Source: Pseudomonadales bacterium
Lineage (GTDB): Bacteria > Pseudomonadota > Gammaproteobacteria > Pseudomonadales > Ketobacteraceae
DNA: 39,087 bases
Assembly: GCA_002701845.1 (NCBI GenBank)
Contig: NZXG01000032.1
Coordinates: 1-39,087, forward strand
Direction of reading: 5' to 3'
Shown here: one piece after another, positions 7,753-38,495 of the stretch
Numbering within the stretch: the stretch's first letter is position 1
How the letters are laid out: the number at the start of each line of letters is the position of its first letter
Translations under genes and position numbers: made by a program
Notes under the pieces: model-generated
What the model was told of the DNA's origin: nothing
The model's database searches: none
What the model saw: only the letters and a program-made list of their open reading frames with translations

Positions 7753-11959
<4,207 letters not shown>

Positions 11960-15309: not shown

Positions 15310-15717
15310 ATGAAGATTGGCGAGCTGGCAAAAAGGACGGATTGCTCGGTGCAAACTATCCGTTACTATGAAAAAGAACAGTTGCTGTGCACGACTCAGC
15401 GTAGTGACGGCAATTTTCGACTTTACGATGAAGCTGCTATCGAACAGCTGCTATTTATCAAGCTCTGCCGCAACCTGGATCTCAGTTTGTCCGAGATCCG
15501 CCAGTTACTCACATTAAAACGCTCTCCGGGCGCGCAATGTGATCAAGTCAATCGCATGATGGATGAGCACATTCAACAAGTAGAAACACGCATTCAGGAG
15601 CTGGTTGAACTGCGCAAGCATTTGAAAGTGCTTCGCCGCAGCTGCTCCAGTGAAAGGACGATCGAACAGTGCGGCATCTTGCAGACGTTAACCACTGATC
15701 AGCATAAAAATCGGTAA
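15310..15717 (+). CDS. cadR: Cd(II)/Pb(II)-responsive MerR-family regulator CadR
   Basis: The protein has 135 residues with the MerR helix-turn-helix at the start (MKIGELAKRTDCSVQTIRYYEKEQLL) and a long dimerisation helix. The metal-site cysteines expected for CadR are present: C77 (GAQCDQV), C112 (RRSCSS) and C121 (EQCGIL). The His-rich C-terminal tail seen in some CadR proteins is missing. It diverges from a cation transporter gene, and the shared region holds a perfect dyad within a 19-bp-spaced promoter. Cd(II) or Pb(II) are the expected inducers. Confidence 0.9.
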   Translation: MKIGELAKRTDCSVQTIRYYEKEQLLCTTQRSDGNFRLYDEAAIEQLLFIKLCRNLDLSLSEIRQLLTLKRSPGAQCDQVNRMMDEHIQQVETRIQELVELRKHLKVLRRSCSSERTIEQCGILQTLTTDQHKNR

Positions 15718-21682: not shown

Positions 21683-21996
21683 TGCTTTAAATTCAAATGG
21701 TTGCATTCCAAGTGGCTAAATTCAACGCTTTTACCGGCCGGACCTCTTACAGGGATGGGCATAGAAGTGGGTTGAATCCAAAGTGTGGGATGATCTCAAA
21801 ATTGTCTAAGAGATATTGATAAACGATCAAGGCGTCAGGGCAAATTGAAAACCTCCTACATCGTCAATAGAGATTGAGGGTGATTCCACTACCATTCATG
21901 TCCTCTGAGAGAGTCCAGGCGCTTTTGTACTTCGTAGAGCGCCCCGAAGTCCCCTTTCCCGATCAGGCTCAGTAATCAACGTGTACCGCCAGTTGA
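21683..21996. other. Non-coding gap between transposase and recombinase
   Basis: I see no supported gene here. Near its right end a 6-base inverted repeat (ACTTCG at 21929-21934, CGAAGT at 21945-21950) is followed by a run of CCCC that ends at 21954. A right-hand Tn3 terminal repeat would be expected to end in CCCC, so this is the best place to look for one, but I found no matching GGGG copy to the left of the transposase gene. Confidence 0.4.
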
Positions 21997-22788
21997 TTAG
22001 TTATGGCCGTTAGTTGGGGAAAGGTTCTTTAGCGCATCCTCGATCATCTCTTCAGGTGGCTCTTCATATATAAGCGTGGTTGATGGATTAACGTGCCCCG
22101 CTATTTTTTGCGCTATTTTCACCGATTTTTTCTGTTTATGGATCACATTGGTGATTAGCGATCGCCGACCACTGTGAGAGCTGGCTTTTTCTATTCCAGC
22201 CCAATCACGGAGCATTAATGCCATATGCTCTTGTAACGTGTTTGGAGAATATGCGCCGCCTTTTTGGGTGATAAAAAGAGGGGAGGAGGGCTTGAGTCGT
22301 TCCTCTTTAACCAAGCGAAGATGTAAGTATTCAGACAATGCCTCTCTGAGATCAGCATCAACCATTGGTAAATCTCGAGACTTACCACGATGTTTCTTCA
22401 CTGGCGGATAAAAGTTTTCTGGATCTATTTCAGCGCCCGATTTAGCAAGCGATTCGATTTGCCGAACCAGTTTATTAAAACTGTCTATATCGAAGCTAAT
22501 CGTATGACGGTGATATTTGGATTTGGAGCGTTTCATCGCATCAGCCCCCTTTGTATAGGAAGCTGGCAAACTAAGAACCTCGTATAGATGAAAATCCGTT
22601 CCGCTAGGATTAAGTCGAGCAACTTCTTTAATCTGGAGGAGCGATATTTCCTGGGCACGAAGGCCGAGCTTAAAGCTAATCTGCATGATGGCCGTGTTCT
22701 TTTCAGGGTATCGATGTTGTTTGATAACATCAAACAGATATCGCTGCTGCTCTACGGTAGGAACTCTGGCTTGTCCAGACTTGGGCAT
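21997..22788 (-). CDS. Tyrosine-type site-specific recombinase, catalytic domain only
   Basis: The product has 263 residues and the tyrosine recombinase set R44 (LGLRAQEISLL), H205-x2-R208 (SSHSGRRSLIT), H232 (AGHVNPSTTLIY) and Y241. It lacks the usual N-terminal core-binding domain of about 100 residues; the start is well fixed by a GGAGG site, so this is a naturally short form or an old truncation. It might act on the Tn3-type element as a cointegrate resolvase (as TnpI does in Tn4430) or be an independent integrase. No att repeat was found. It faces the transposase in convergent orientation. Confidence 0.85.
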   Translation of the reverse strand: MPKSGQARVPTVEQQRYLFDVIKQHRYPEKNTAIMQISFKLGLRAQEISLLQIKEVARLNPSGTDFHLYEVLSLPASYTKGADAMKRSKSKYHRHTISFDIDSFNKLVRQIESLAKSGAEIDPENFYPPVKKHRGKSRDLPMVDADLREALSEYLHLRLVKEERLKPSSPLFITQKGGAYSPNTLQEHMALMLRDWAGIEKASSHSGRRSLITNVIHKQKKSVKIAQKIAGHVNPSTTLIYEEPPEEMIEDALKNLSPTNGHN

Positions 22789-22814
22789 TTTGACCTCCGA
22801 GTAGGGATAGATTA

Positions 22815-22843
22815 AATCCGTAATAATAAGATTTTAACGGATT
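22815..22843. promoter_or_regulatory. Inverted repeat between recombinase and antitoxin genes
   Basis: Arms AATCCGT (22815-22821) and ACGGATT (22837-22843) flank a 15-base AT-rich spacer in the divergent region between the recombinase and the ParS-type gene. It could be an operator for either gene, for example for autoregulation by the antitoxin-like protein, or a recombinase site. Nothing in the sequence decides between these. Confidence 0.35.
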
Positions 22844-22937
22844 ATAGTGATTTCGATAGTGAGGTTTGACATAGAGTTGCAATTTTCCACAATACAACCA
22901 ATATCATGATTTATCGGGAAAAAACCGGAGATCGAAC

Positions 22938-23285
22938 ATGAAATCTGAGATCGATATCGAAGTCGCCAAGAAACTTTTCCATAAAATCGCTAGTGAATGG
23001 AGCCTTACAGCCGCAGAGATAAACGCTTTACTCGGTGGCACTGGAGACATCGATGATCGCCAATTAACCGAAGAAGATATATTGAAAATTTCCACGATAG
23101 CTGGAATCTACGGAGCACTACAGACCTTGTTTGTTGACGAGAGCCAATGGCGTGGTTGGGTCAGAAAGCCAAACAGCGATTGGAACGGGCTATCCGCTTT
23201 GGATGTGATGATCTCTGGAAAGCTTGAAGATATTCAAAAGGTTCGAAATTATCTCTCCGCCTGGGGCGAACAGCACAACCTTTAA
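22938..23285 (+). CDS. Orphan MbcA/ParS/Xre-type antitoxin-like protein
   Basis: The 115-residue protein has a short N-terminal helical part and a C-terminal toxin-binding-like domain (DUF2384 type) with LFVDESQWRGWVRKPNSDWNGLSALDVMISG, the hallmark 'W.....P...F.G..P...l..G' pattern. Such proteins are antitoxins that pair with a RES-domain NAD+-degrading toxin encoded directly downstream. No RES gene follows within the 350 bases to the next CDS, so it is solitary here. A GGAG site precedes the ATG. It could be a remnant, a solitary regulator, or an antidote acting on a toxin elsewhere. Confidence 0.78.
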   Translation: MKSEIDIEVAKKLFHKIASEWSLTAAEINALLGGTGDIDDRQLTEEDILKISTIAGIYGALQTLFVDESQWRGWVRKPNSDWNGLSALDVMISGKLEDIQKVRNYLSAWGEQHNL

Positions 23286-23635: not shown

Positions 23636-24658
23636 ATGTTGAAACATGGATCGTTTGACTGCGGTTTTGAAATATCAGACGTAGCCACTTGTGATTTTTC
23701 TTCGCTGGAAAAGCTTGATAATGAAACGTTGTTCGCCCGTTTGGGAAAAGGTAATCAAGGCAAGCTGGTGCGTTTTATTGAGCGTACTATGGGGGCTCGT
23801 CGGCGATACCATTGTGATCCTGATAGCAATGCGCTGGATCTGGCCCGTAGCGCATTGAGCCGATTATTGGAGCGCAACCCGGAATTGGTCGAAGATGCCG
23901 AGTTTTTCATTATGGTGGGTATTTCCAACCCCATGCCGATAACCACCACCAGCGCCTTGCTGGCGGGTGAATTTGGTTTCAAGAAGGTCAGTTGCTGGGA
24001 TATCAAGTCGGGCTGTTCTGCCGGTGTGCTTGCCTTGATTCAGGCGCTACAGTGGATTCAGTCCGGCGCTAAATCAGGGGTGATTGTCTCTTCGGAAACC
24101 CTGAGCAAGTTCTCCAATCCCGAGGTGCTGCAGATGAGTGCTGCGATTGGGGATGGTGGCGCCGCGTTAAAGATCTCGGCATCCGATCGTTGGCGAGTGC
24201 GGGGTATGGTACATGGAACGGACCCCAGCCTGGTGCGTACCATGATGGTGAAAGGCACCTTCCCTATCAAGCTGGAAACCTATAACCCTTCAGATTACCT
24301 GTTTTCATTTGAGCAAAAAGTTGAAGTGATTGAAGCAATCGGGAAATACTGGATTCAATCGTTGCAAGAACTGCTGGAGGTTGCCGACGTAAATCCGGCC
24401 AGTGTGACCCACTATATTGCCCATCAGGTGGATGCATCAAAGAACGCCGCTGTTGCAAACCACTGTGACATCAACCCGGATAACGTGGCCAGAAGTTTTG
24501 CGGAATACGGGAATATGGGGGCACCCACCGTGTTTGTTAATTATCACGATTGGGTAAACCGCCCCGGGCATCACTACCAAAAAGGCGACAATCTGGTTTT
24601 CCATGCTGTGGGTGGCGGTGTTTCCTGGGCGGGGTTGTGCCTGGAGTATTTGGGTTAG
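23636..24658 (+). CDS. KAS III-like condensing enzyme (divergent type)
   Basis: This 340-residue thiolase-fold protein is of the FabH/KAS III class with an intact triad: C127 (DIKSGCSAG), H263 (YIAHQVD) and N293 (EYGNMGAPTVF). The first 60 residues differ from FabH and include a Cys-rich start. The usual FabH loop after the Cys is replaced by VSSETLSKFSNPEVLQ, so the substrate is probably not acetyl-CoA. Related enzymes start, join or off-load chains in secondary metabolism. I set the start at the ATG at 23636 behind a GGAG site; an upstream GTG in frame is unlikely. It points toward the dehydrogenase gene, whose stop it overlaps by three bases, and probably belongs to the same cluster. Confidence 0.85.
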   Translation: MLKHGSFDCGFEISDVATCDFSSLEKLDNETLFARLGKGNQGKLVRFIERTMGARRRYHCDPDSNALDLARSALSRLLERNPELVEDAEFFIMVGISNPMPITTTSALLAGEFGFKKVSCWDIKSGCSAGVLALIQALQWIQSGAKSGVIVSSETLSKFSNPEVLQMSAAIGDGGAALKISASDRWRVRGMVHGTDPSLVRTMMVKGTFPIKLETYNPSDYLFSFEQKVEVIEAIGKYWIQSLQELLEVADVNPASVTHYIAHQVDASKNAAVANHCDINPDNVARSFAEYGNMGAPTVFVNYHDWVNRPGHHYQKGDNLVFHAVGGGVSWAGLCLEYLG

Positions 24659-25392
24659 ATCACCATTTCCTGACCATTTTCTGACGCATTCTCGATATTG
24701 AGCAGACCAAATATAGCTTCGGCTACCTGCATTTCACTAACCGCGGTGGCCTCCAGTTCCGGGTGCTTTCTACGAAGTTTCTTGGTGCGGGCGTTAATAA
24801 CTACACCGGGGTGTAGCAAATGACAGAACACGCCATTGGCTTGGTATTCGCTGACGATCGAATTTTTAAGGCCTACCAGACTGCTTTTGCTTAGATTGTA
24901 GAGTGCCTGCCCCGCCAACCCATGCAGCCAACCTTGCGAACCAATCAATATCAGCTTGCCCGCTTGCCTGTTTCTCATCGGTTTAAGCAATTGGGTGAGC
25001 ATATAAACAGTGTGTGTGATGTTGACGGTAATGGATTGTTCGATTTGCTCGAAGGTCAGATTGTGCAGTTTCTTTGCACCGTATTCGTGAAAATAGTTGA
25101 TGCCGACATTCATTACTACGCTCGCCGGCCAGGATTCATGGAGCGTTAACTCTGCAAACAACCGCTCAATATCCTCTTTGCTGGACTGATCGCATTGATA
25201 AATATCCACCCGGCTGTTATCCGCCTTGCTCTGCAAAGCCTGCTTTGCCACAGCCAGTTTTTCGGGGCATCTACCCGTAATGATTATATGTTCAGCCCCC
25301 TGATTGACGAGCAGTTCCGCACATGCGAATCCAATCCCTGAGCTGGCACCGGTTATCAAAACCGGTTGCGTCAGAACTGTACCCGGATTCAT
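24655..25392 (-). CDS. Short-chain dehydrogenase/reductase of the NRPS cluster
   Basis: This is a classical SDR of 245 residues: Rossmann motif TGASSGIG (14-21), the NNAG position changed to NVGIN (95-99), catalytic S152 (LIGSQGW), Y165 and K169 (YNLSK). An Arg (GR at 40-41) after the second beta strand suggests NADPH. It would reduce a keto group, perhaps the beta-keto product of the ketosynthase next door. The start at 25392 overlaps the stop of the FabH-like gene (ATGA) and follows a GGGAGG site, so the two are translationally coupled. Its stop overlaps that of the convergent KAS III-like gene, leaving no room for a terminator between them. Confidence 0.88.
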   Translation of the reverse strand: MNPGTVLTQPVLITGASSGIGFACAELLVNQGAEHIIITGRCPEKLAVAKQALQSKADNSRVDIYQCDQSSKEDIERLFAELTLHESWPASVVMNVGINYFHEYGAKKLHNLTFEQIEQSITVNITHTVYMLTQLLKPMRNRQAGKLILIGSQGWLHGLAGQALYNLSKSSLVGLKNSIVSEYQANGVFCHLLHPGVVINARTKKLRRKHPELEATAVSEMQVAEAIFGLLNIENASENGQEMVI

Positions 25393-26438
25393 GCAAACAC
25401 CTCCCGGCCGCTCCAGCGTAAGAGGTGTGCTCCGCCGGTGAATCCACCACCCACCGCACACAGTAATACCAGATCACCGGTTTTCAGCAGGCCCTGCTCC
25501 CCTGCTTCGCTTAATGCAATCGGTACAGACGCGGCCACGGTATTGCCCTTGCTGGGAAAGTTCACCAGCGTCTTATGGGGGGCAATGTTCAGTTCTAATA
25601 ACACGGATTCAAGTAAAAACAGATTGGGTTGATGAAACAGAAAGAAATCGATGTCTTCCAGTGTGTAATCGGTTTTGGCGAGCAGATCCTGGCACAGGCT
25701 CGGGATTCCAACGCCGGCGTTTTCTGATATGCGTCGACCATTAGGCATGGTCAGGGTTGCTGTTGTCTGGCCGGAAGATACTGCACTACCTACTGAAGGT
25801 ACAAATACTGCATCATGGCCACTGCCATCGGCGTACAGATGGCTGGCAATAAAACCTGGCTGGTGTTGATTGAGTTGATTGAGTTGATTAAGCTGATCGG
25901 ACTGGTTCTGATGCTGTTGACTGATCACCACGGCGCCGGCTCCATCACCGTATAAAAACGCCGTGCGCTTGTTGCTTTTATCCAATGTTCTTGAGCGCAC
26001 ATCCACGCCAATAACCAGTACGTGCTTATCACCGGTGGCGACACTGCGTATGGCCTGATCAACCGCATAGATAAACCCGCTACAGGCGGCCCCCACATCG
26101 TATGCCGGAAACCCTTTTCCACCCAGTTTATGTTGCACCACACAGGCAGTGGATGGCGAAAGGTAGTCACCGGTTGAGGTGGCGAGAATCAGTCGGTCGA
26201 TATCGTTGACACTGAGATTGGCGCAGCGTAAGGCACGTTCAGCCGCCCTGGTAGCCAGATCTGAAGTGCAGGCATCGTCTGATAGAAAATAACGGGTCTT
26301 GCTACCCACGTTCTTGTCCAAAAAGGAAGACTTGATGCGTATGGAAAAATCTTCCATTACATCTTCGTTGGTCAACAGTTGAGAACCGGTTTCGTAGCCG
26401 TATCCTCGGATTACAATGTTATACGGGGCATTATACAT
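25389..26438 (-). CDS. FabH-like ketosynthase III of the NRPS cluster
   Basis: This 349-residue enzyme resembles FabH: C119 in GAACSGF, the YGDGAGAVV loop, H269 in LFHQPN and N299 in SKGNTVAASVP, so the decarboxylative condensation triad is complete. An internal QLNQLNQLNQHQ stretch (about 182-193), from a DNA tandem repeat, sits in a surface loop where family members vary. FabH-type enzymes load an acyl group on Cys and add a malonyl-ACP C2 unit, or act as acyltransferases in secondary pathways. It is 59 bases downstream of the carboxyltransferase gene and coupled to the SDR, suggesting a malonyl-making, condensing and reducing trio. Confidence 0.9.
   Translation of the reverse strand: MYNAPYNIVIRGYGYETGSQLLTNEDVMEDFSIRIKSSFLDKNVGSKTRYFLSDDACTSDLATRAAERALRCANLSVNDIDRLILATSTGDYLSPSTACVVQHKLGGKGFPAYDVGAACSGFIYAVDQAIRSVATGDKHVLVIGVDVRSRTLDKSNKRTAFLYGDGAGAVVISQQHQNQSDQLNQLNQLNQHQPGFIASHLYADGSGHDAVFVPSVGSAVSSGQTTATLTMPNGRRISENAGVGIPSLCQDLLAKTDYTLEDIDFFLFHQPNLFLLESVLLELNIAPHKTLVNFPSKGNTVAASVPIALSEAGEQGLLKTGDLVLLCAVGGGFTGGAHLLRWSGREVFA
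25866..25892. repeat. Three 9-bp tandem repeats inside the FabH-like gene
   Basis: TTGATTGAG occurs twice and TTGATTAAG once in tandem, encoding three LNQ units on the minus strand. The repeat keeps the frame and lies in a loop, so it is a tolerated slippage expansion. Confidence 0.85.
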
Positions 26439-26497
26439 GGTGCCTGTGTTCCCTTAATGCAGCAATCGATTGTACTCTGGTGTTGCCGATTATTTGT

Positions 26498-27937
26498 TTA
26501 AACGCACGCGACGGAATCGGGCGCCTGGCTATTCTGTTGAGGTGCTTTCCCGTCATCCAGGTGGCTGTAATCGCCTTCCAGAAAGCACTGAATGGCCGCA
26601 GGCAACTCATCTATGGAAAGTGCCTTGCTTGCAACACCGGTATCGACAATATCCTGGAAATCAGCTTGTTCCCGTTCTTTGGATGCCTGCCATAACTTGA
26701 GCATGCGTTTGGACTTTTCCAGCAGATGGGCAATGATGGATTCGTGCATTACACCCAGTGTGGTGCGTTCAAGAATAACGTAGTTGGCCATTGAGCCATA
26801 AATTCTGGGTATTGCCAGTGTGTTTGCTCCACCAAAACCACGCCCGATCCACACGCCCATTTTAGGATATGGGTATTCGATGATGGCTCGGTTGGCCTCG
26901 ATCATCTGTTGAATCACGTCCTGATTGCTGTTGTCCACTCTCGGATCCACGCCGGGAGTGTCCAGGAATGAAACAATGGGAATGCGCAGGGCTTCAAATA
27001 AACGCAGGGCATCCTGATATAATTTAAGTGTGCGCACCGTGATCATGTTATTGGAATTCTCTGGCGGATTCATCAGTAATCCAAACAGTTTGCCCTTGGT
27101 TTCGATCAGATAAACGCGCATTCTTGAATCAAACCCACTGAACACCTCAAGATACCGGTCAGCGATGGGATATAGGAGTTGAATGCAGGCCCGCTCTACC
27201 TTTTGTTGTTGGCGCGGCATGAAATCCAGGTATTTTGATACCCCGGGCTCGGATACCATGGGTAAGAGGCCGGTGGAACTTGAGACAGTGCCCAACAAGG
27301 TACAGGCCCGGTTTAACGCAGTTTTCAGATCTTCTGTCCGTTCGTGTATGAGGGTTGTTTTAAGGTACTGCTGGTCTACTGATGCGAATGAAAGAAAATC
27401 CACTTTGCTGCCAAAGAACAGCCGAAACACATCCGGCCCGGTCAGGTTGAGGGTGGAGTCCTGACGCACCCCGATGCGATAGTGTGCCAAGCCAAACAGG
27501 ACTGCGGAAAGGCCCAGGCACTGACCATGACAAACCGAGATAACAAGATTGTTACGGGTATAGTTGTCCAGTGCAGGGATCAGATTGAAAACGTCATTGA
27601 AGACTGTGCGGCCCTCGATAAAACGGTAACCAAGGGAATTCATCACCGTTATGAGTGGCAGGCCTTCTTCATTGCAGGCTTCAAGAAATGAGGCGATTCT
27701 GCGGGCAATATCCCGACCAAAACTGCCACCATTAACACGAAAATCACTCCAGATGACAGCGAAATCCTGATCAAGCCCCTGGGTTCGAAATAGCCATGTG
27801 CCGTCTGAACTGGCACGGCGGATATTGTCGTGATCCGCCACAGGCAACCATGCCTGTACTTTATTAATGCCAAGATCTGAAAGTGGCCGGAAAAAGGAAA
27901 ATTTGGTTAATTCAAATTCAACCCAGTCAACGTTCAT
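26498..27937 (-). CDS. Carboxyltransferase-fold protein (acyl-CoA carboxylase beta type)
   Basis: The 479-residue protein has two crotonase-like halves, as in propionyl/acetyl-CoA carboxylase carboxyltransferases. The N-terminal half has WSDFRVNGGSFGRDIARRI, SLGYRFIEGR and CHGQCLGLSAV. The C-terminal half has FLDTPGVDPRVDNSNQ, IEYPYPKMGVWIGRGFGGAN and the GVMHES region. Several usual residues are changed, for instance DSGGARIQEG becomes NSLGYRFIEG. No biotin carboxylase or biotin carrier is in the window, so it either borrows those subunits, acts as a decarboxylase or has another function. It follows the NRPS after 44 bases and precedes the FabH-like gene. Supply of malonyl-type extender is my inference. 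Confidence 0.82.
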   Translation of the reverse strand: MNVDWVEFELTKFSFFRPLSDLGINKVQAWLPVADHDNIRRASSDGTWLFRTQGLDQDFAVIWSDFRVNGGSFGRDIARRIASFLEACNEEGLPLITVMNSLGYRFIEGRTVFNDVFNLIPALDNYTRNNLVISVCHGQCLGLSAVLFGLAHYRIGVRQDSTLNLTGPDVFRLFFGSKVDFLSFASVDQQYLKTTLIHERTEDLKTALNRACTLLGTVSSSTGLLPMVSEPGVSKYLDFMPRQQQKVERACIQLLYPIADRYLEVFSGFDSRMRVYLIETKGKLFGLLMNPPENSNNMITVRTLKLYQDALRLFEALRIPIVSFLDTPGVDPRVDNSNQDVIQQMIEANRAIIEYPYPKMGVWIGRGFGGANTLAIPRIYGSMANYVILERTTLGVMHESIIAHLLEKSKRMLKLWQASKEREQADFQDIVDTGVASKALSIDELPAAIQCFLEGDYSHLDDGKAPQQNSQAPDSVACV

Positions 27938-27981
27938 CGGTTAAATCCCTGCTTGTTGTTTTAATGTGGGTTAGTGTTATG

Positions 27982-30900
27982 TTAAACAAGTTCACCTTCT
28001 TCAAGGTCTTGCATTGAATCTTCCTGATCGGCGCTATTTATCAGAAACTGAATCAACTGACCAAGTTTCTCAATACTGGCAAGTTCAAACACCGTTCTCA
28101 GCGGAAGTTCGATTTCAAAAGTTTTCTTGATCGCGTTGTGAATCTGTACCGCCAGTAGGGAATCGCCGCCCTGCTCCATAAAGGAACGTGTTCTGCAGGG
28201 CTGGTCAATTTTCAGTAAGTTGCTCCAGATCAAGGCCAGTTTCGCTTCCACGGGCCCTATGGGTGGCTGGGTGCGAATGAGCTCATCACCGGCGAATGGT
28301 GCCGGGAGTGCCGCCGTGTCCACTTTGCCGTTTGCGGTTAACGGTAAGGCTTCAAGCAGGATGTAATCTGCAGGCAGCATGTAGGTTGGTAAGTGGTCTG
28401 CCAACCAGGCGTGGATCTCACCCTTTTTAAAATCAACCCCGGGTTTTGACACAATGTAGGCGATGAGAAACTTGCTTGTTTCCACATCCCAGACATGCAG
28501 TTTGGCATCGGCAATGGCGGCATGCAGTCGCATTTGAGCTTCGATTTCGCCCAGCTCAATGCGATAGCCCCTGATTTTAACTTGTGTGTCGTTTCGGCCG
28601 TGATAATACAGTAGTCCGTTGTGATCCCAGCGCCCCAGATCCCCGCTTTTGTACAGGCGTTTCATTGGCGTTTGATCGCTGTTTTCAAGGGCCAGGTCAA
28701 TAAAACGGGTTTGGTTTAACTGCGGCCGTTTCCAGTAGCCCCGGGTTACCTGCCCTCCCCCAACGTAGATTTCACCCACCACGCCTGGTGGTAACAGCCT
28801 GTGCTGTTCATCGAGTATGTAGATCTCGGAATTGGGCAGCGGCCGGCCGATAGAAGGTGCGTTCTCTGTTTGATGCGTGACATCATGATAGGTGCCCACT
28901 ACGGTGATTTCAGTGATGCCGTACATGTTGATTAATTGTGTATTGCTGGTGGGGTTGACCCTGTGCCAGTTGGCAAGGGCCGATGAATCCAGTGCCTCAC
29001 CGCTGAGTATAATCTGGCGCAAACAGTGGTGTTTTGCGGCCTCAGGTGCTGAGCTTTGCGCTTCAACCAGTGCCTTGAACGCGCCCGGTGTCTGATTGAG
29101 TATGTTGACACCTTCATTCTGAATCAGTTGCAGGAATTCTTCACTGTTTCTGGTGGTTTGCTCGGGTACAACAATGAGTTTGGCACCACTGGTGAGTGCT
29201 CCCCATATCTCCCATACGGCAAAATCAAAGGAGACCGAGTGGAACAGTGTCCAGGTATCCTCTGCATCATAGTTGAATTGAGCCTGCATGCTGTCGAGTA
29301 GGTTGCTCAGTTGCTGGTGCTCTACCGCCACACCCTTTGGTGTGCCCGTTGACCCCGAGGTATAGATCATATAAGCGAGTTGGGAGCCTTGCGGATTACG
29401 ATTATGCTCTGGATTTTCATCACCATTACTGAACATGGTATCGGCCACAAGGATTCGGGTAACAGCCGGGTCAATCAAAGTGCGCGCTCTTGCTTCATCA
29501 TTTGCGGAAGTGATCAGGTGCGTTGGCGTGGCATCCTCAACGATGAATCGCAATCGTGCATCGGGCAGGTGCACGTCCAAGGGCAGGTAGCCCGCCCCGG
29601 CCTTAAGGGTGCCAATCAACCCGGCAATCAGATCGATGCCACGGTCAAAGTACACAGCAACACGATCATTCGCCTGAACACCCGCCTTGATCAAGCGGTT
29701 CGCTATCTGGTTGGCTCGTGTATTGAGTTGTGCATAGGTTAGGGTGTCGGCGCCTGATTTGATGGCGATTTTATCGGGTAAACAATTCGCGGTGTGTTCG
29801 AAACGAATGTGAGCCGGCAGGTGCTTGAGGCGGCTGGTCTGATTACGTGCCATGTGTCTTACAATGTTGTCCCGGAATGCGTCGGGCAAAACACTGATTT
29901 GGCCTAACGTGCAGGGGGAATTGTGCTGTAGTTGGCTGGCAATTCGGTCCAGTGCAGTTTGGTAAAAGTCCAGTATTAAAGCAGAATTAACTGAGCTTGC
30001 GGTTTGTAATGCCAATGCCAGGCTGGTGTCGGATTCGTTGATACTGAGGGCGATGGGATAGTGAGAACTCTGTTCCAGAGCAAGCGGAGTCACGCCCCTT
30101 TTGCCCAGTTGTTGTAAGGTCTCTTCCGCGCCTGTCGATTGCTTGTGGCGATAATTCAGCAGGGTATTGAATAAAGGTAATTCCGCTGCCACGTCACTGC
30201 AGCGTTTTATCAGGGCAAGCGGTGCGTGTTCATGCAGGGTCAGTTCACTTAGTTGATGATGAAGCCCTGTGAGGGCATCCGGCAGCAGCGGGTTGTGGCC
30301 TGCGCTATTATTGATTCGTACCGGTACGGTGTTGATGAATAAACCAACGACACTGTCCGGTGCCGGCCGCCCCATTGCCCTGCCGGACAATACCGTGCCG
30401 AATACCACATCACAGCGCCCGCTGCAGGCACTGAGAACCAGTCCCCATGCCAAATGCGCGATACTGGAGAGTGAAACGTTGGCATTTCTCGCCGCTGCCG
30501 CCAACTGGTTAAAGCGCATTGCATCAAGGGTTGCTTCCGTTATCTGAATGTCTTGCCTGGGCAGATTGTCTCTGTGTTCATCAAACACAAAGGCTGGCGT
30601 GTCATAACCCGACAGCAGCCCTCTGAAGTAGTCTTCATGCTCCGCTCGCGATTCTTTCCTCTGCTGAAGTACGTAGTGGCTGTAAGGAACGGGCGCGCTG
30701 AGCTGGTCTTGCTCACCACTCAGGATCAGCTTTATCTCGTAGAATATCTGCTCCAGTGCCTGGTGATCCGCAATAATGTGATGGGCTTGGATTCCCAGCA
30801 GGTAACCATCTTTGATTTCAGATACGGCAAGTTCTATTAACGGCGGCTTGGCGATGTCGAATTGCTCAATCGCTTTGTTAAAGAAACCTTGAATCTGTTG

Positions 30901-33900
30901 TTGTGCCTCTGCTTCGGTGCGCCTGTTTCCGGTGCTTGTGTCCAGATAATGGGGTTTTAGATTTACAGCACGCTGCACCACTTGCAGAGGTTGTTCCAGA
31001 TTGCGCCAGTGAATGCCGGTTCGCAGGGCATCATGCCGCTCGACGATTTTTTCCAGGGCAAGCACAAACGAGTCTAACGCGGCCTGGTGATCGAGCTTGA
31101 ACATGGAGCGTAGCAGATAGGGATCATCCTGCTGGGCAATCAAGTGGTGGAACAGGATGCCTTCTTGCAAGGGAGACAGGGGGTAAATCGCTTGAATGTT
31201 GTCTACCTCTCCACCCTGTAGCGCCACCAGTTCATCCAGCTCAGCCTGGCTGATGGAAAGGTATGGAAGCTCGGATGGGGTAATCTGGCCCCGCCCGGTT
31301 TTCAGGTTTACGCACTCAACAGGGTATGGCGGCAGATCCCGCGGCGGTGTTATTGCATTGGCCTGGGCAGTGTTATTACCCACACGTTTGGCAAGATCCG
31401 CCAGATCCTTCGCCTGGAATACCGTTCGAATATCGGTGCTCAAGCCCTTTTTCTGTAACGCAGAAACCAGTTTGACCGCCAACAGGGAGTGTCCGCCCAG
31501 GCCGAAAAAGTTATCGTGGCGGTTGATGTTTCCGGTACCCAGTAATGCAGACCACAGCGCTGCAATTTGGGATTCGGTTTTGTTCCGGGGGGGATCAGTC
31601 AGGGCTCTGGATAACTCTGCCTGGGTTGCGTCAGGCAGTGAGGCGGTGTCCAGTTTTCCATGGGGGGTAAGCGGCAGTGCCGCAAGTTGGATCCAGTACG
31701 AGGGCTGCATGTAATCCGGTAATTCTGCTTGCAGCCTGAGCCTGGTTTGCTCTATCAACGCCTGCTCTGACATTGTTGCATCCGGTGAGGCAACAATGTA
31801 GGCAACCAATTGGCTTTGGCCGTTGCCGTTGTTAATCGCTCTGACTACGGCTGCTTTAATGCACGGCTGACTGGCAATGGCCGTTTCTATTTCGCCCAGT
31901 TCAATGCGGTAGCCCCGTACTTTAATCTGCGAATCGTTTCTGCCGATGAATTCCACTTCACCGGAATTTGTCCAGCGGGCAAGATCGCCGGTGCGATACA
32001 AGCGAGCCAAGGCGCCGTCTGTAGCAAGCCCATAGGGGTTTTCCAGAAATCGCTCGGCGTTAATGTCCGGTCGATTCCAATAACCCCTCGCCACCTGGGC
32101 ACCACCAACATACATCTCACCCACCACGCCGGTCGGCACCGGCTGTTTGTGGGCATCCAGTATATAGATCTGGGTGTTGTCGACGGGTGTGCCGATGGGA
32201 ATCGAGGTTTTGCCGCGATCAGCTTCCACCATCCTGTGACAGGTGGCGAACACAGTGGTTTCAGTGGGGCCGTAGTCGTTGATAAAAACCTGTGGCGGGC
32301 TGTTGCTTAGTGTTTCCAGCATGGCAACGGGGTCCACAGCCTCTCCCCCCACCAGGCAATAGCGTAACCGACTCAGTACCGGGGCAAGCGAAAGCCGGTA
32401 TTGGTTAAACAGGGACACCGTAATCATCATGCTGGTGACCTGTTGTCGCAGCAGCTCCTGGGTAAAAAGTTCCGGATTGAGAACCGTATCCGGTGCAATA
32501 ATGGCGACACTGGCACCGCGACACAATGCACCCCATACTTCCCAGGTGGCGGCGTCAAAGGCGGGGTTGCCACAATGGGCCATGCAATCTTCTGGTGCCA
32601 ATGGCGCCTGTTGATTGTGGTAAACCAGGTTGGTTATCTGGCGATGCTCTATGATCACCCCTTTGGGTGTGCCGGTTGAGCCTGATGTATACATCATATA
32701 GGCCAGGTTATGGGGGGCAACCTCGCCGTTGCTGTTGATCTTATGCTTATTGGGTGAGGTACCTGGATTGATCGTTTCAATGTCGAGCCATGGCAGCTCC
32801 AGGGAAACAATATGATCCAGCAGGCTTTGGTGCTGCTCTGATCTGGCCGGATGGGTCAGGATCAATACCGGATCTGCATCCTGTAAGATAAAATCGGCGC
32901 GGTTGCGTGGGTAAGCCGGATCGATTGGTACGTACCCTGCCCCGGCCTTGAGTATCGCCAGCATGGCAATAACAGACCATTCACTGCGTTCCATGAGGAT
33001 GGCAACACGATCCTCAGGTTGCAGGCCGTGTTCAGCCAAGGCCGCCGTTACGCACTCAGCATGATGGTTCAATTCCCCATAGGTCAACTGCTGAGAGCCA
33101 ATCTTCAGTGCAACGGCGTCCGGTGATTGCAGCACCTGTTGTTCAAACAGATGATGCACGCAAAGATCTGGTATGGTGCGCTGGGTGCTGTTCAGGTGGT
33201 AGAGTAAATGCGCTTTCTCCTGCTCGCCCAGTAGGTCAATTCGATCCCACGTACTGTCGGAATCTTCACTAAGTGCAGTCAGGATCCTGTCAAAATAACC
33301 GGACCAACGTTGGACGGTGTCCAGATCCAGGATCTCATTATTGAATTCCCATTTAATCTCAAGTCCATCCGCGCTGGATGTGCAATCCAAAGCCAGGTCG
33401 AATTTGGCTTCCTGGTTATAGGTGTGGGTGGGATGAACCTGTGCCGCCGCCAGTTCCAGGTTCCATGTATCTTTGCTTTGCAGGTTGATCATCACCTGAA
33501 ACAGGGGATTGTAGTGCCGGTTACGGGGTGGGTTCAGTTTTTCCACCAGTAATTCAAAGGGTACGTCTGCGTGCTCATAGGCCGTCAGGACGGTGTTTCG
33601 GCAAGCATCCATAAGGTGGGCGATGCTGGCATCAGGGGTCAGGGTATGCCGTATTACCAGCGAATTCACCATAAAGCCGACGATTGCGGCGCATTCAGTA
33701 TGATCCCGGTTGGCATAAGCGGCGCCGATGGCAATATCGCAGCCGTTGGATTCGGAGCCATCGAGGTTGCCGGTCAGCCGCCCCATCAGCATTGCCATTG
33801 CCAGCTGCAGCTGCATGTACAGAGTAGCGCCATGACGCTGGCCGGAGTTCATTAATTGTTGCAGACGGGCCGACGAAAGCTGTTGTGTCAGGGTCGCTGC

Positions 33901-36603
33901 AGTAAAGTGTCCTGAATAGGGCCGATCCAGGGGCAAACTGTGGCGTTCGGGCAAATCCTGTAATTGATGCAGCCAGTAGTCCAGATGGTGCGTTTGCTGA
34001 TGGCCGTTTGCCAGCTCATGTTTTAACGTCCAATCCGTGTATTGCCACTGCACGGGTTGGAGCGGGGATTCACAACCCGTACGGTAAGCTGAGTAAAGCG
34101 CCGACAGCTCCTTGGCCAGTATTTCCACCGACCAACCATCGGCGGCGATGTGGTGCAGGGTCAGGGTGAGGACATAATGGTCCTCTTCCACCTGATACAG
34201 AGTGGCGCGCAGCATCAGGTCGGAAGTCAGATCAAAAGGTGTGGACTGTTCTGCCTCTATCATGGATTCCAATGTTGTATCCTGATCTGGCTTTGCTATC
34301 AAATTGTGACATTCCAGCCTCAGGTCCGGCGCGGGCAAACGATATTGCCGGGGCTCACCCTCCTCCGTTTTTGTGTATACCGTGTGCAGTATATGATGAC
34401 GTTCTATCAACGCAGTCAGAGCCTGTTTGAGTGTATCCACGCAAAGGCCTGCAGTGATCTGATAGCGAACACTCATATGATAGGTGGAGGATGTGGGATC
34501 CAGTTCCTGCAGCAGCCACATTCGTTTTTGGGCCGAGGTCAATGGTAGGCGGCCCTGCTCATCGTAGGGCAGTGGCTGCTGTAGCCAGTCCGCATCATCC
34601 GAACACTGTGTGCCGGTACTGTCCATGTGAGTGGCCAGTTGCCTGATGGTGGAATGCTTGAACAGATCCCTCACCGTGAGTTCTTTGCGAAACTCATCTC
34701 GAAGCCTGGAAATCAGGCGGGTGGCGATGATGGATTGCCCTCCCAGGCTGACAAAGTCGGCGTGAATGGAGAGGTTGCTGCGGTTGAGCATTTCCTGCCA
34801 GATCGAAATCAATCTGAGTTCAGTGTCGGTGGGTTTCTTGTGGGCGGGGTTTTGTTTCGCCTCGATCGCGGACATAAGCGGGTTAGCGGCGGTCCAATCC
34901 AGCAGCAGGTTCGGCTCCAGTGAGCCGTTATCCACCCGTTCGCAACAGTTGATGCGCTGCAATTTTCCGTTGTGGGTTCGTGGCAAGCTGCCTACGTTCA
35001 GCAGCACTATCCGTTCCACGTTTACCTGGAACCGTTCATAAACCGTGTCGCAAATGATGCTGATGATGTCTTCATAGGCGGCAGGGTCAATCTCCGGTTT
35101 AAGCTCCTGAAAAATTGCCAGAGCTTCGCCCTGAGCACTCTCCCAGGCACCGGCAATGGTTGCATAGGGAACAAAATGGGTGCTGGCCCCGTTCACCACC
35201 TGCTCGATATCGAGGGGATGCAGCTTTTTACTGCCGACGATGATCAGTTCCTTGCGTCGACCCACTACGTAGAGATTGCCGTCGGCAATCGTGCCTATGT
35301 CGCCGCTGCGGACATAAGGGCCGCTTCCATCACTGGCATACTGGCCAAATGTCTGTGCGGTGATCTCAGGCTTGTTCCAATAACCCTGTGCCACGGTGGG
35401 GCCGCAAATCCAGATCTCCCCCAGCTCCCGGTCTGCACAGGGCTTACCGGTATCCGGATTCACGATGGCCACATTGGGCCTGGCGGTGCCGACGCTGACC
35501 AGCGTTTTGACCTGACCTGAAGTGGATGCTGCGATGAGGCCGGCTTCAAAGCTGGCTTTATCAACATCGATGCGGGGTACCTCACGATCGTGGTCGGCTC
35601 CTGAACAAAACACCGTCGCTTCTGAAAAGCCGTAGGTGGTGAGGAAGGTTTGCGCTGTAAAGCCGGTACGGGCAAAACGCTCGCTAAACTGATCGATCAG
35701 GTTGCTCTTCAGTGGTTCAGATCCAATGGCGGCGACGTCCCAATTGGACAAATCGAGCTGATCAAGCAGGCCATCCGGTAAAAAATTGAGACAGGTTTCG
35801 TAACCGATGTTGGGAGCACCGCTGTGCGTTGCCCGATAGTGAGACATGGCAATGAACCAGCGCGCGGGATTGACCATGAATTTATCGGTGGGAATTAATA
35901 CCAGATGGGCACCTACTGACAGGGGCAGCAGGCCAAAACTCAAAAAGCCCATGTTGTGGAACAGTGGCAACCAGGAAACAACGGTTGAATTCTTGTCGAT
36001 TGCGGCCACTTCCAGCATGAGGTCGATACAGGCGTCCAGATTACCGTGGCTGGCGATGACCCCTTTGGGTGTGCCCGTTGAGCCCGATGTATATTGCAGT
36101 AACGCCATGTGCTGGCTCTCGGGCTCGTGAATCTTGCAAACACGTGCTGGATTCAAGGCCGCTTCCAGCGTAAGCCTACGGCCGTTATCCGGATCGATCT
36201 CGATGACGCCCTGCAGTGCCGGCAGCAGTGCCTCCTGAGTCAACAACAGGGCCGGGCTGCAGTCGGCACTGATTTTGTTAACAAAATCCACCAGCGCAGG
36301 TTGCTGGGGAATTTGCACAGGTACCACTACCACACCGGACAGCAGGCAGCCCCATACCGCAGCAAAGTAGTCGGGCCCGGGTGGCAACAGCAACAGCACT
36401 CGATCCCCGGCTGATGTGTTCAGGCGAATACTGCTCGCGATTTTGTAGGCGTGTTGTTTTAACTGGCCGTAGGTACGATTGATCGAATCAACAGGATCAC
36501 CCTCTGGTAAATAGGTGATAGCAACTTGATCGGGATATTGGTTGCTGATGAGTTCAAGACGTCGAAGAAGCGATAAACCGCTGGTAGTGAAAGGTGTTGT
36601 CAC
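27982..36603 (-). CDS. FAAL-initiated two-module NRPS without thioesterase
   Basis: This 2873-residue assembly line starts at a GTG (36603) behind a GGGAAGG site. Domains in order: fatty acyl-AMP ligase (about 1-575; TSGSTGTPKG near 172-181, SWLPLFHNMG near 207-216); PCP with S624 (LGGQSI); C domain with HHIAADG (817-823); A domain with FDAATWE (1349-1355) and NDYGPTE; PCP with S1706 (LGGHSLL); C domain with HHLIAQQDD (1819-1827) and HHIIADH (1941-1947), the pattern of dual epimerase/condensation domains; A domain with FDFAVWE (2459-2465) and NMYGITE; PCP with S2815 (QGGDSLL). The chain ends in a short acidic tail with no thioesterase, reductase or terminal C domain. The expected intermediate is an N-acyl dipeptide, D-configured at the first residue, left on the last PCP. 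A1 pocket residues look hydrophobic-type and A2 Thr-like; both are tentative. Confidence 0.93.
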   Translation of the reverse strand: MTTPFTTSGLSLLRRLELISNQYPDQVAITYLPEGDPVDSINRTYGQLKQHAYKIASSIRLNTSAGDRVLLLLPPGPDYFAAVWGCLLSGVVVVPVQIPQQPALVDFVNKISADCSPALLLTQEALLPALQGVIEIDPDNGRRLTLEAALNPARVCKIHEPESQHMALLQYTSGSTGTPKGVIASHGNLDACIDLMLEVAAIDKNSTVVSWLPLFHNMGFLSFGLLPLSVGAHLVLIPTDKFMVNPARWFIAMSHYRATHSGAPNIGYETCLNFLPDGLLDQLDLSNWDVAAIGSEPLKSNLIDQFSERFARTGFTAQTFLTTYGFSEATVFCSGADHDREVPRIDVDKASFEAGLIAASTSGQVKTLVSVGTARPNVAIVNPDTGKPCADRELGEIWICGPTVAQGYWNKPEITAQTFGQYASDGSGPYVRSGDIGTIADGNLYVVGRRKELIIVGSKKLHPLDIEQVVNGASTHFVPYATIAGAWESAQGEALAIFQELKPEIDPAAYEDIISIICDTVYERFQVNVERIVLLNVGSLPRTHNGKLQRINCCERVDNGSLEPNLLLDWTAANPLMSAIEAKQNPAHKKPTDTELRLISIWQEMLNRSNLSIHADFVSLGGQSIIATRLISRLRDEFRKELTVRDLFKHSTIRQLATHMDSTGTQCSDDADWLQQPLPYDEQGRLPLTSAQKRMWLLQELDPTSSTYHMSVRYQITAGLCVDTLKQALTALIERHHILHTVYTKTEEGEPRQYRLPAPDLRLECHNLIAKPDQDTTLESMIEAEQSTPFDLTSDLMLRATLYQVEEDHYVLTLTLHHIAADGWSVEILAKELSALYSAYRTGCESPLQPVQWQYTDWTLKHELANGHQQTHHLDYWLHQLQDLPERHSLPLDRPYSGHFTAATLTQQLSSARLQQLMNSGQRHGATLYMQLQLAMAMLMGRLTGNLDGSESNGCDIAIGAAYANRDHTECAAIVGFMVNSLVIRHTLTPDASIAHLMDACRNTVLTAYEHADVPFELLVEKLNPPRNRHYNPLFQVMINLQSKDTWNLELAAAQVHPTHTYNQEAKFDLALDCTSSADGLEIKWEFNNEILDLDTVQRWSGYFDRILTALSEDSDSTWDRIDLLGEQEKAHLLYHLNSTQRTIPDLCVHHLFEQQVLQSPDAVALKIGSQQLTYGELNHHAECVTAALAEHGLQPEDRVAILMERSEWSVIAMLAILKAGAGYVPIDPAYPRNRADFILQDADPVLILTHPARSEQHQSLLDHIVSLELPWLDIETINPGTSPNKHKINSNGEVAPHNLAYMMYTSGSTGTPKGVIIEHRQITNLVYHNQQAPLAPEDCMAHCGNPAFDAATWEVWGALCRGASVAIIAPDTVLNPELFTQELLRQQVTSMMITVSLFNQYRLSLAPVLSRLRYCLVGGEAVDPVAMLETLSNSPPQVFINDYGPTETTVFATCHRMVEADRGKTSIPIGTPVDNTQIYILDAHKQPVPTGVVGEMYVGGAQVARGYWNRPDINAERFLENPYGLATDGALARLYRTGDLARWTNSGEVEFIGRNDSQIKVRGYRIELGEIETAIASQPCIKAAVVRAINNGNGQSQLVAYIVASPDATMSEQALIEQTRLRLQAELPDYMQPSYWIQLAALPLTPHGKLDTASLPDATQAELSRALTDPPRNKTESQIAALWSALLGTGNINRHDNFFGLGGHSLLAVKLVSALQKKGLSTDIRTVFQAKDLADLAKRVGNNTAQANAITPPRDLPPYPVECVNLKTGRGQITPSELPYLSISQAELDELVALQGGEVDNIQAIYPLSPLQEGILFHHLIAQQDDPYLLRSMFKLDHQAALDSFVLALEKIVERHDALRTGIHWRNLEQPLQVVQRAVNLKPHYLDTSTGNRRTEAEAQQQIQGFFNKAIEQFDIAKPPLIELAVSEIKDGYLLGIQAHHIIADHQALEQIFYEIKLILSGEQDQLSAPVPYSHYVLQQRKESRAEHEDYFRGLLSGYDTPAFVFDEHRDNLPRQDIQITEATLDAMRFNQLAAAARNANVSLSSIAHLAWGLVLSACSGRCDVVFGTVLSGRAMGRPAPDSVVGLFINTVPVRINNSAGHNPLLPDALTGLHHQLSELTLHEHAPLALIKRCSDVAAELPLFNTLLNYRHKQSTGAEETLQQLGKRGVTPLALEQSSHYPIALSINESDTSLALALQTASSVNSALILDFYQTALDRIASQLQHNSPCTLGQISVLPDAFRDNIVRHMARNQTSRLKHLPAHIRFEHTANCLPDKIAIKSGADTLTYAQLNTRANQIANRLIKAGVQANDRVAVYFDRGIDLIAGLIGTLKAGAGYLPLDVHLPDARLRFIVEDATPTHLITSANDEARARTLIDPAVTRILVADTMFSNGDENPEHNRNPQGSQLAYMIYTSGSTGTPKGVAVEHQQLSNLLDSMQAQFNYDAEDTWTLFHSVSFDFAVWEIWGALTSGAKLIVVPEQTTRNSEEFLQLIQNEGVNILNQTPGAFKALVEAQSSAPEAAKHHCLRQIILSGEALDSSALANWHRVNPTSNTQLINMYGITEITVVGTYHDVTHQTENAPSIGRPLPNSEIYILDEQHRLLPPGVVGEIYVGGGQVTRGYWKRPQLNQTRFIDLALENSDQTPMKRLYKSGDLGRWDHNGLLYYHGRNDTQVKIRGYRIELGEIEAQMRLHAAIADAKLHVWDVETSKFLIAYIVSKPGVDFKKGEIHAWLADHLPTYMLPADYILLEALPLTANGKVDTAALPAPFAGDELIRTQPPIGPVEAKLALIWSNLLKIDQPCRTRSFMEQGGDSLLAVQIHNAIKKTFEIELPLRTVFELASIEKLGQLIQFLINSADQEDSMQDLEEGELV

Positions 36604-36847: not shown

Positions 36848-37495
36848 ATGGCAAGAACTAAATCCACCAGGTCCACCAGAAGCGCCGGGCGACCCACGTC
36901 AGAAGACGTACTTGAGATCGAAAATATGCTGATCGAGGCGGCATTGGAGGAGTTTCTGGAGCATGGTTATGGTAGTGCGTCATTGGACAGAGTCGTAAAA
37001 CGGGCGCGGGTTTCCAAGACAACCCTGTATTCCCGCTATGCTTCGAAAGAAGAATTATTTCGGGCCATTGTGTATCAACAGATTAACCGAATTAATCCTG
37101 CCTCGTTGTTACAAGTGGATTCACGTTCTTTCAGCCTTGAAGAAGGGTTGAAATCTTATGCCAACACCATGCTGGAATTGAACCTTAAAGGCGAGATGCT
37201 GGGGGTCAATCGTTTGATCAATAGTGAATCCGGACGTTTTCCCGAGTTGGGTACCGCGGCTGCCGAGCGTACTCAACTTGGCATTGATCGAATATCACGG
37301 TTTATTGCCGATTGCGCGAAAAGCGACGGTATTCCCTGTCGAGCCCCGGATAGCGTCGCCAGAGCCTTTATTCTCATGATCCGTGGCTGGTATACCCATA
37401 TCCTGCTTACAAATCAGAAAGTTACCAAGACGCAACGGCAGCGTTGGGTTGAGGAAGCCGTGCACGTGTTGGTTTCTTCCCGCCGGGACTGGTAG
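36848..37495 (+). CDS. TetR-family transcriptional regulator
   Basis: This 215-residue regulator has a basic N-terminal tail (MARTKSTRSTRSAGRPTSED) and the TetR helix-turn-helix (IEAALEEFLEHGYGSASLDRVVKRARVSKTTLYSRYASKEELF). The ligand domain is all-helical and not diagnostic. A GAGGAAAG site precedes the ATG. It is divergent from the NRPS gene and 145 bases upstream of the TauD gene on the same strand. An ATAGTAC inverted repeat overlapping the TauD promoter is the best candidate target, which would make it a local repressor of the dioxygenase-flavoprotein unit. Control of the NRPS is possible too. Confidence 0.9.
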   Translation: MARTKSTRSTRSAGRPTSEDVLEIENMLIEAALEEFLEHGYGSASLDRVVKRARVSKTTLYSRYASKEELFRAIVYQQINRINPASLLQVDSRSFSLEEGLKSYANTMLELNLKGEMLGVNRLINSESGRFPELGTAAAERTQLGIDRISRFIADCAKSDGIPCRAPDSVARAFILMIRGWYTHILLTNQKVTKTQRQRWVEEAVHVLVSSRRDW

Positions 37496-37546
37496 AGCTC
37501 ATCCCTGCCTGCCTGCAGAAAAGCTGACCTTCGAGTCTAATCCCCC

Positions 37547-37576
37547 TTGACGCTTAATAGTACGGAGGAGTACTAT
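37547..37576 (+). promoter_or_regulatory. TauD-operon promoter with embedded inverted-repeat operator
   Basis: TTGACG (37547-37552) and TACTAT (37571-37576) are 18 bases apart. An inverted repeat ATAGTAC-N6-GTACTAT (37557-37576) covers the spacer and -10 box, a place where a TetR repressor would block RNA polymerase. A third ATAGTAC half-site lies at 37584-37590. The neighbouring tetR gene is the obvious candidate regulator. Confidence 0.6.
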
Positions 37577-37640
37577 CGATTTAATAGTACAGTATTGTAT
37601 CAATAAGCGCAGACAACGGAAATTACGAGAGGTGTAGAAC

Positions 37641-38453
37641 ATGCCGTTCGAGGTGTATCCACTTAAGGAGCGTATAGGATCAAGGGTAGAGATTGATTCT
37701 AAGTACCTGGGCCACCCAGAGGAGGTAGCCGAAATCAGAGGGTTACTGTTGGAAAGAGGCGTTTTGGTATTTAAGGAGCAGCATCTTTCAGATGAGCAGC
37801 AGTTAGGGTTGGCGCGGTTGCTGGGCACTTTAAGAGAAGAGTTGGGTAAGGGGATCTACAAAATTACGCTGGATAAAAAATCCAACGCGCATGCCGAGTA
37901 TTTGAAAGGCTCTTTCCTGTGGCACATTGATGGTACTCACGACGATATCCCTCCTTTCGCAACATTACTTACCGGATTGACCCTGTCTGAAACCGGTGGC
38001 CAGACAGAATTTGCAAACTCTTACGCGGCTTATGAAGAGCTGCCACAGGAAACCAAGGACCGAATCGACAATCTGCAAGTGGTGCACAGTGTGGAAGTTT
38101 CCATGAGCCGCGCCGGGATTGAGCCCACGGCTGAGAATCTTGAATACTGGAAGAGTTTTAAGCCCAAAACACACAATTTGGTGTGGACGCATAAATCCGG
38201 TCGAAAGTCGTTGGTGATCGGTTGCCACGCTTCCCATATCGTGGGCATGGATAGATCCAAGAGCGATGCCCTGATCAAGGATTTGTTGGATTGGGCCACA
38301 CAACCCAAGTTTGTGTATCGTCATGAATGGACTCCTGGCGACCTGATTATCTGGGACAACACCGGCGTCATTCATCGGGTGGAGCCCTACCCTCTGGACT
38401 GTGGTCGAATCATGCATCGAAGCACCTTAATGGGCGAAGAGCCTTTTGCCTGA
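37641..38453 (+). CDS. TauD/TfdA-family Fe(II)/2-oxoglutarate dioxygenase
   Basis: This 270-residue enzyme of the TauD family has the iron ligands H95 and D97 (LWHIDGTHDD) and distal H245 (TGVIHRVEPY). An Arg for 2-oxoglutarate lies just after (R256 or R260 in GRIMHRSTL). Such enzymes couple 2-oxoglutarate decarboxylation to hydroxylation of an organic substrate, often a sulfonate, aryloxy acid or related carboxylate; the substrate is not readable here. A GAGG site precedes the ATG. The gene is followed after 42 bases by a flavoprotein and preceded by tetR, which suggests a small catabolic or tailoring operon. Confidence 0.9.
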   Translation: MPFEVYPLKERIGSRVEIDSKYLGHPEEVAEIRGLLLERGVLVFKEQHLSDEQQLGLARLLGTLREELGKGIYKITLDKKSNAHAEYLKGSFLWHIDGTHDDIPPFATLLTGLTLSETGGQTEFANSYAAYEELPQETKDRIDNLQVVHSVEVSMSRAGIEPTAENLEYWKSFKPKTHNLVWTHKSGRKSLVIGCHASHIVGMDRSKSDALIKDLLDWATQPKFVYRHEWTPGDLIIWDNTGVIHRVEPYPLDCGRIMHRSTLMGEEPFA

Positions 38454-38495
38454 ATTCACTGAATAACAGAAACAATAAAGAGGATGGAGCGGATA

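Follow-up and report, generated by a model that had tools for sequence, protein, structure and literature searches.

The analysed stretch of DNA (the window) comprises bases 1-39087 of the 79,320-base contig G000:C34 in the 4.9 Mb draft genome of the host, and it carries a compact cluster of five genes. According to the reading frames and the Pfam and NCBIfam scans of the window, all five genes are intact, with no internal stop:

23636 to 24658, plus strand: KAS III-2, a divergent KAS III protein of 340 aa counted from a conserved Met at 23636, with Cys127-His263-Asn293
24655 to 25392, minus strand: a FabG-like classical SDR of 245 aa with Ser175-Tyr188-Lys192 (P0004 numbering)
25389 to 26438, minus strand: KAS III-1, a FabH-like protein of 349 aa with Cys119-His269-Asn299
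26498 to 27937, minus strand: a carboxyltransferase (CT)-fold protein of 479 aa, acyl-CoA carboxylase beta-like, with the loops HGQCLGL and GFGGA
27982 to 36603, minus strand: an NRPS of 2873 aa with the architecture FAAL-PCP-C-A-PCP-C-A-PCP, release domain absent

The NRPS gene is followed by those for CT, KAS III-1 and the SDR, all on the minus strand, and the KAS III-2 gene lies convergent to them on the plus strand. The gaps of 44 bp between NRPS and CT and 59 bp between CT and KAS III-1 are compatible with a single operon. The SDR probably starts at the ATG at 25392, the ATGA of which overlaps the stop codon of KAS III-1, and the end of KAS III-2 overlaps that of the SDR by 4 bp. The gene content proposed in the initial annotation of this DNA, a thioesterase-less FAAL-NRPS followed by a CT, a FabH-like KAS III and an SDR, plus a convergent second KAS III, is therefore confirmed. 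Beside KAS III-2, at 18695-23285, are a Tn3 transposase, a tyrosine integrase and an Xre/ParS-type antitoxin-like gene, a region that is perhaps a mobile-element border. On the NRPS side, window 36848-39087 together with locus L018 contains TetR, a TauD-type dioxygenase and a ketosteroid dehydrogenase-like FAD gene, followed by AveC-like and MMPL genes; none of these neighbours is clearly linked to the cluster. The TetR, TauD and FAD genes were left out of it, since the genes before the NRPS differ in the related genome of Pseudomonadales bacterium DeMMO5_2 (G194), where the two scanned encode an S8 peptidase and a protein without Pfam match. Further away, window 1069-15717 is metal-resistance-like, with a multicopper oxidase, a CusS-like kinase, an RND pump with membrane fusion and outer membrane proteins, cation efflux and MerR.

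The Pfam matches of the NRPS comprise three AMP-binding, two Condensation and three PP-binding stretches, and neither a thioesterase nor a reductase family is found in its Pfam list. All its parts lie on the minus strand:

34879 to 36603, minus strand: FAAL domain
34627 to 34815, minus strand: PCP1 (GGQSI)
33202 to 34557, minus strand: C1 domain, HHIAADG
31609 to 33156, minus strand: A1 domain, code DAWMLGDVFK
31369 to 31566, minus strand: PCP2 (GGHSL), bounds approximate
29869 to 31206, minus strand: C2 domain, dual E/C-like with inexact motifs
28294 to 29820, minus strand: A2 domain, code DFWNISMVVK
28054 to 28248, minus strand: PCP3 (GGDSL), bounds approximate
27985 to 28020, minus strand: acidic docking-type C-terminal tail (...QDLEEGELV)

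When the first AMP-binding domain was scanned alone, FAAL models ranked best after one generic NRPS/PKS model, with each listed model below its curated cut-off. The codes of the two amino-acid A domains, obtained by alignment, correspond to DAWVLGIVFK (A1) and DFWNIGMVHK (A2) in the orthologue of DeMMO5_2, the latter being what we take to be a Thr code. The best PDB match is linear gramicidin synthetase for A1 and A2 alike, which leaves the substrate undecided. From the codes, the chain predicted on PCP3 is acyl-X-Thr, X being a residue without code assignment. The initial annotation had called the second C domain C/E. A resemblance to dual E/C domains does exist, but the motif is inexact: HH[I/L]xxxxGD is described near the N-terminus of such domains (accessible parts of PMC1894796 and PMC3039948), and the two NRPSs have HHLIAQQDD (here, with HHIIADH as second motif of C2) and HHLMTQEQD at this place. 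A FAAL-like fragment is also present on another contig of the host (L060, G000:C30:1-16000, 3152-4111 and 49-3036, both on the minus strand), where it ends beside a Tn3-type transposase gene. It is 56.5% identical to NRPS residues 9-287 and looks like what is left of a further FAAL gene of the host.

The CT-fold protein matches Pfam Carboxyl_trans with 66.8 bits (cut-off 22.3). It aligns with propionyl/acetyl-CoA carboxylase beta chains of solved structure, best with 1vrg (73 bits). It retains a DTPG motif and two glycine-rich loops, the first of which reads HGQCLGL in place of GPCAGGA. No biotin subunit is found among the cluster genes. Six biotin-carboxylase C-domain matches are present in the host genome, one of them weak (35 bits), and these proteins are possible partners of the CT. 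The CT is highly divergent, lacks a cluster-encoded partner subunit and may be without carboxylation activity. The AF2 models of the CT (pLDDT 38.9) and of KAS III-2 (pLDDT 49.5) are poor. KAS III-1 reaches 268 bits against the NCBIfam model of beta-ketoacyl-ACP synthase 3 and thus passes its cut-off of 249, so that it could be an ordinary chain starter; against the solved FabH 2ebd it scores 183 bits. KAS III-2 is more distant, with 110 bits against the same model, and the two KAS III proteins are 21% identical. The Cys-His-Asn residues of both KAS III proteins and Ser-Tyr-Lys of the SDR, which we assume to be catalytic, are kept in all three genomes compared. In KAS III-1 a Ser replaces the Phe preceding PSTAC of the aligned FabH 2ebd, presumably the gate of the acyl pocket in FabH, and the Arg of HQANVR, presumably the ACP docking residue of FabH, is replaced by Phe/Tyr; the matching place of KAS III-2 has Ser/Gly (HQVDAS). 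KAS III-1 also contains a short in-frame NQL repeat (NQLNQLNQLNQ, window 25857-25913) that is missing in both relatives. The SDR scores 73 bits against the mycolate SDR model (cut-off 380); the closest models are FabG for the SDR and FabH for KAS III-1. A third KAS III match in the host (G000:C22) was considered as an ole cluster and rejected: judged from the Pfam names of seven proteins, its neighbours are MbnB-like, alpha/beta hydrolase and helicase genes, followed at some distance by an AMP-ligase, an arrangement other than oleABCD. An MbnB/TglH/ChrH-type (DUF692) gene of the host (L020:7469-8317, minus strand), near which a DoxX gene lies, marks a possible RiPP locus.

The CT of this type was found in three genomes in the searches made: the host, DeMMO5_2 and Gammaproteobacteria bacterium Ch67 (G234), the last two belonging to one genus. 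In the order, nine of 293 genomes match at E 1e-10, and the host itself, DeMMO5_2 (68% identity) and Ch67 (44%) stand out, the other six being 22-25% identical. In the family, four of 15 genomes match at E 1e-15, three with 788-939 bits and one with 59 bits. The phylum sample gives matches in 159 of 398 genomes at E 1e-15, the best besides the own gene having 103.5 bits, and these were taken for ordinary carboxylases. Two strict peptide patterns run over the genome contigs gave 62 pattern matches with the same two relatives. The genome with the next best CT (G650, 103.5 bits) was followed up as a sign of a wider spread and rejected, as the 18 kb analysed there contain no KAS III, SDR or NRPS relative at E 1e-3. 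The KAS III proteins appear to be rare as well: one of 369 genomes of the class sample for KAS III-1 (E 1e-90) and one of 398 of the phylum sample for KAS III-2 (E 1e-45), in both cases the host itself, a rarity that refers to these partial genome samples. Plasmid searches returned 64 records for KAS III-2 and 137 for the CT, all below 60% identity.

In DeMMO5_2 the five genes have the same order and relative strands as in the window, so the cluster is more than a chance association; there, an alpha/beta hydrolase and a methyltransferase adjoin KAS III-2. In Ch67, KAS III-1, SDR and CT run in one direction with KAS III-2 convergent, and no NRPS gene stands beside them; a FAAL-PCP query gives six matches in this genome at 31-35% identity versus 60% in DeMMO5_2. 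Of the three genomes bearing the four-enzyme unit, two thus also have the NRPS, and the NRPS-free unit is seen in one. Near that unit (L022) are a GH3-family protein (13162-14841, plus strand), an ACBP/phasin protein (6658-7710, minus strand) and a PEMT/ICMT-type methyltransferase (L022:12426-13043, minus strand). GH3, which we take to be an acyl-acid amido synthetase family, occurs in three of six genomes searched. The identities for window-DeMMO5_2, window-Ch67 and DeMMO5_2-Ch67 are 72, 69 and 84% for KAS III-1, 66, 69 and 77% for KAS III-2 and 54, 56 and 63% for the SDR, and thus follow the genus shared by the two relatives. The NRPS is 49% identical between window and DeMMO5_2. The CT, with 66, 40.5 and 42%, tracks the NRPS and not the genus across the three genomes, as it should if the donor of a product-specific chain is determined by the CT; we read it as fixing a substrate relevant to the NRPS product. 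A replacement of the CT, or its fast change after loss of the NRPS, would predict the same identity pattern, and Ch67 may simply have lost the NRPS.

The C-terminal tail of the NRPS, ...QDLEEGELV, corresponds to ...GEEYEEGVFD in the orthologue of DeMMO5_2, and the preceding linker is not conserved. A large FAAL-initiated lipopeptide NRPS line is encoded elsewhere in the host (G000:C24:111600-176000; L061, L095, L119), the frames of which have matches of similar length in the other five genomes searched. This C24 line contains three TubC_N matches and two thioesterases, one as a domain of a 5510-aa protein and one separate. Its subunit 2 ends with ...DADDYEEGSL (...EEEFEEGSL in DeMMO5_2) directly before a TubC_N subunit in both genomes. 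A pattern of the form hydrophobic-[DE][DE]G-x-hydrophobic close to the end, defined post hoc from tails already viewed, occurs in five of 303 distinct frames of at least 300 aa, a set that includes non-genes. Its carriers are the cluster NRPS, the orthologue in DeMMO5_2, subunit 2 of the main line in both genomes and, in a further genome (G066), a frame next to a TubC_N match that is probably subunit 2 as well. Because the tail is shared with this subunit, the chain may pass on in trans, and the missing release domain may reflect such a hand-off. Moreover, there are 12 thioesterase matches elsewhere in the host genome (seven exceed the Pfam cut-off; several are partial), so that release in trans by one of these is possible. 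Two further NRPS frames were seen, a single-module-sized one among other genes in DeMMO5_2 (C58) and a 1315-aa frame in the host (G000:C64) that, by eye, is a candidate for a partner NRPS.

The initial annotation had proposed that the chain is extended or released by KAS III chemistry. In this reading the acyl-dipeptidyl chain is transferred from PCP3 to a KAS III, which joins it to CT-derived malonyl, giving a beta-keto product (tetramate-, pyrone- or amino-ketone-like) that the SDR may reduce. The linkage on which the proposal was built holds, as the triad is complete in either KAS III and their genes share a cluster with that of the thioesterase-less NRPS. That the NRPS, CT, KAS and SDR genes follow one another in an operon, in window and DeMMO5_2 alike, also speaks for it, and the replaced Arg of HQANVR in both proteins hints that they may work with a partner other than the usual ACP. 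However, Ch67 keeps both KAS III, the SDR and the CT together without the NRPS, so that, judged by its gene content, the KAS III genes have no fixed link with NRPS release. This weakens the idea of obligate off-loaders, to which the low identity of the FAAL matches in Ch67 adds, and the NRPS carries a docking-type tail. Release by KAS III is therefore not supported by the comparison; it is possible, but less favoured than a role in making the acyl chain, and we consider it rather doubtful. If a KAS III released the chain instead, this would be a new NRPS off-loading mode. We regard as similarly doubtful that the NRPS serves the C24 line as an additional loading subunit, its tail docking in trans to a TubC_N subunit of that line and the line's own thioesterase releasing the chain. 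Here the common tail pattern and its position directly before TubC_N in the main line are suggestive, all three TubC_N matches of the host (E up to 0.1) lie in the C24 line, the 5510-aa protein of which has the thioesterase domain, and subunit 1 of that line is collinear with the cluster NRPS over its length (32% identity), its second amino-acid A domain being of Thr type. Other lipopeptide lines are known to use alternative starter modules (PMC7524897, in its accessible part). On the other hand, the pattern is post hoc, the cluster tail has one extra residue beyond the hydrophobic end, and another TubC_N subunit of the C24 line is preceded by a tail, ...DEFEELEI (...DYEEIEI in DeMMO5_2), that falls outside the pattern. 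The main line, moreover, already owns a loading subunit, and the pairing between these separate contigs is a predicted one.

Two further readings concern the enzymes beside the NRPS. In the lipstatin pathway SDR and NRPS are reportedly LstD and LstE, and the KAS III pair here, 21% identical and accompanied by an SDR and an NRPS, could likewise form a heterodimer for the non-decarboxylative condensation of two acyl-CoA, with the CT otherwise engaged, e.g., as decarboxylase or binding protein. LstA and LstB are 23% identical and act as a heterodimer, and the accessible text of the same source does not mention a CT for lipstatin (PMC12141560). Since here both KAS III have a full triad, their genes are on opposite strands and the SDR is FabG-like, we hold this for improbable. 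A quite different explanation would see in CT, KAS III-1 and SDR duplicated targets that confer self-resistance against an inhibitor of fatty acid synthesis made by the NRPS. Self-resistance copies of target enzymes are known from other clusters, and KAS III-1 and the SDR are indeed closest to the FabH and FabG models. Yet the set is found without the NRPS in Ch67, and the CT aligns with propionyl-CoA carboxylase-type chains and reaches just 15 bits against the AccD model, which makes this explanation very unlikely.

Taken together, the four-enzyme unit of CT, KAS III-1, KAS III-2 and SDR probably makes the fatty part and does not release the product. We tentatively favour, as the best explanation though at somewhat less than even confidence, a lipodipeptide pathway in which a separable acyl unit is combined with the FAAL-NRPS and the chain leaves via a partner in trans. 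Substrates, order of steps and release are what we infer from the gene set. The CT, together with a biotinylated subunit encoded elsewhere, would form a carboxylated acyl donor (malonyl or alkylmalonyl), which one or both KAS III would condense with an acyl primer in a decarboxylative Claisen condensation. The SDR would reduce the 3-keto group, yielding a 3-hydroxy, possibly 2-alkyl-3-hydroxy, acyl chain, and the FAAL would put this chain on PCP1. The two NRPS modules would then append residue X and, by its code, Thr, before the chain leaves via the trans partner recruited by the docking-type tail. This lipodipeptide pathway leaves the formation of the free acid needed by the FAAL unexplained, as no acyl thioesterase that would yield it was found in the cluster of the window.

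In agreement with the initial annotation, a described pathway with exactly this gene set was not found in searches of the open-access literature. The condensation of two acyl chains by carboxyltransferase, ketosynthase and SDR is already known from mycolic acid bacteria, where FadD32, AccD4, Pks13 and CmrA make alpha-alkyl beta-hydroxy acids (PMC8733736, accessible part). The locus resembles this system in its set of FAAL, CT-fold protein, condensing enzyme and FabG-like SDR. It differs in that a KAS III pair takes the place of the type I PKS Pks13, the FAAL is fused to a dipeptide NRPS, the CT is divergent and the host is a proteobacterium. No type I KS is found among the ten proteins scanned at the cluster end of the window, and because Pks13 is absent we do not assign the locus to the mycolate type. 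An independently evolved, gammaproteobacterial mycolate-like condensation, in which CT and KAS III pair join two acyl chains, the SDR reduces the product and the FAAL-NRPS turns the alpha-branched beta-hydroxy acid into a lipopeptide starter for hand-over in trans to a different lipopeptide line, seems unlikely to us. If it existed, such a condensation, with KAS III enzymes in a compact format and linked to a FAAL-NRPS, would open a new way of making branched lipopeptide starters.

With lipstatin biosynthesis (LstA/LstB; accessible parts of PMC12141560 and PMC7064751) the locus shares two unlike KAS III proteins, but it has a CT, a FAAL fused to the NRPS, intact triads in both KAS III and a classical SDR. 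The heterodimer is a putative one here, and the locus is not assigned to this type either. In nocuolin A biosynthesis the ketosynthase of NocH/NocG turns FAAL-loaded acyl chains into a beta-keto acid. The source, a FAAL review (PMC11837247), does not report the set of dipeptide NRPS, CT, SDR and two KAS III in its accessible part, and FabH, carboxyltransferase and carboxylase are all absent from its main text. Extra or shared loading proteins that feed at least one NRPS line are described for anabaenopeptin, puwainaphycin and laxaphycin, the last with shared loading (accessible text of PMC7524897). The parts for laxaphycin lie in one cluster, whereas the two loci here are on different contigs and docking is predicted. 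The docking-type tail provides a testable case of an NRPS subunit that would supply an assembly line from a different locus. In SLiM/beta-hairpin docking a short C-terminal peptide binds an N-terminal beta-hairpin domain (PMC6195595 and PMC9113145, in part). The tail of the cluster NRPS may be such a peptide, but no TubC_N domain is found among the Pfam matches of the cluster, and its TubC_N partner would lie elsewhere in the genome.
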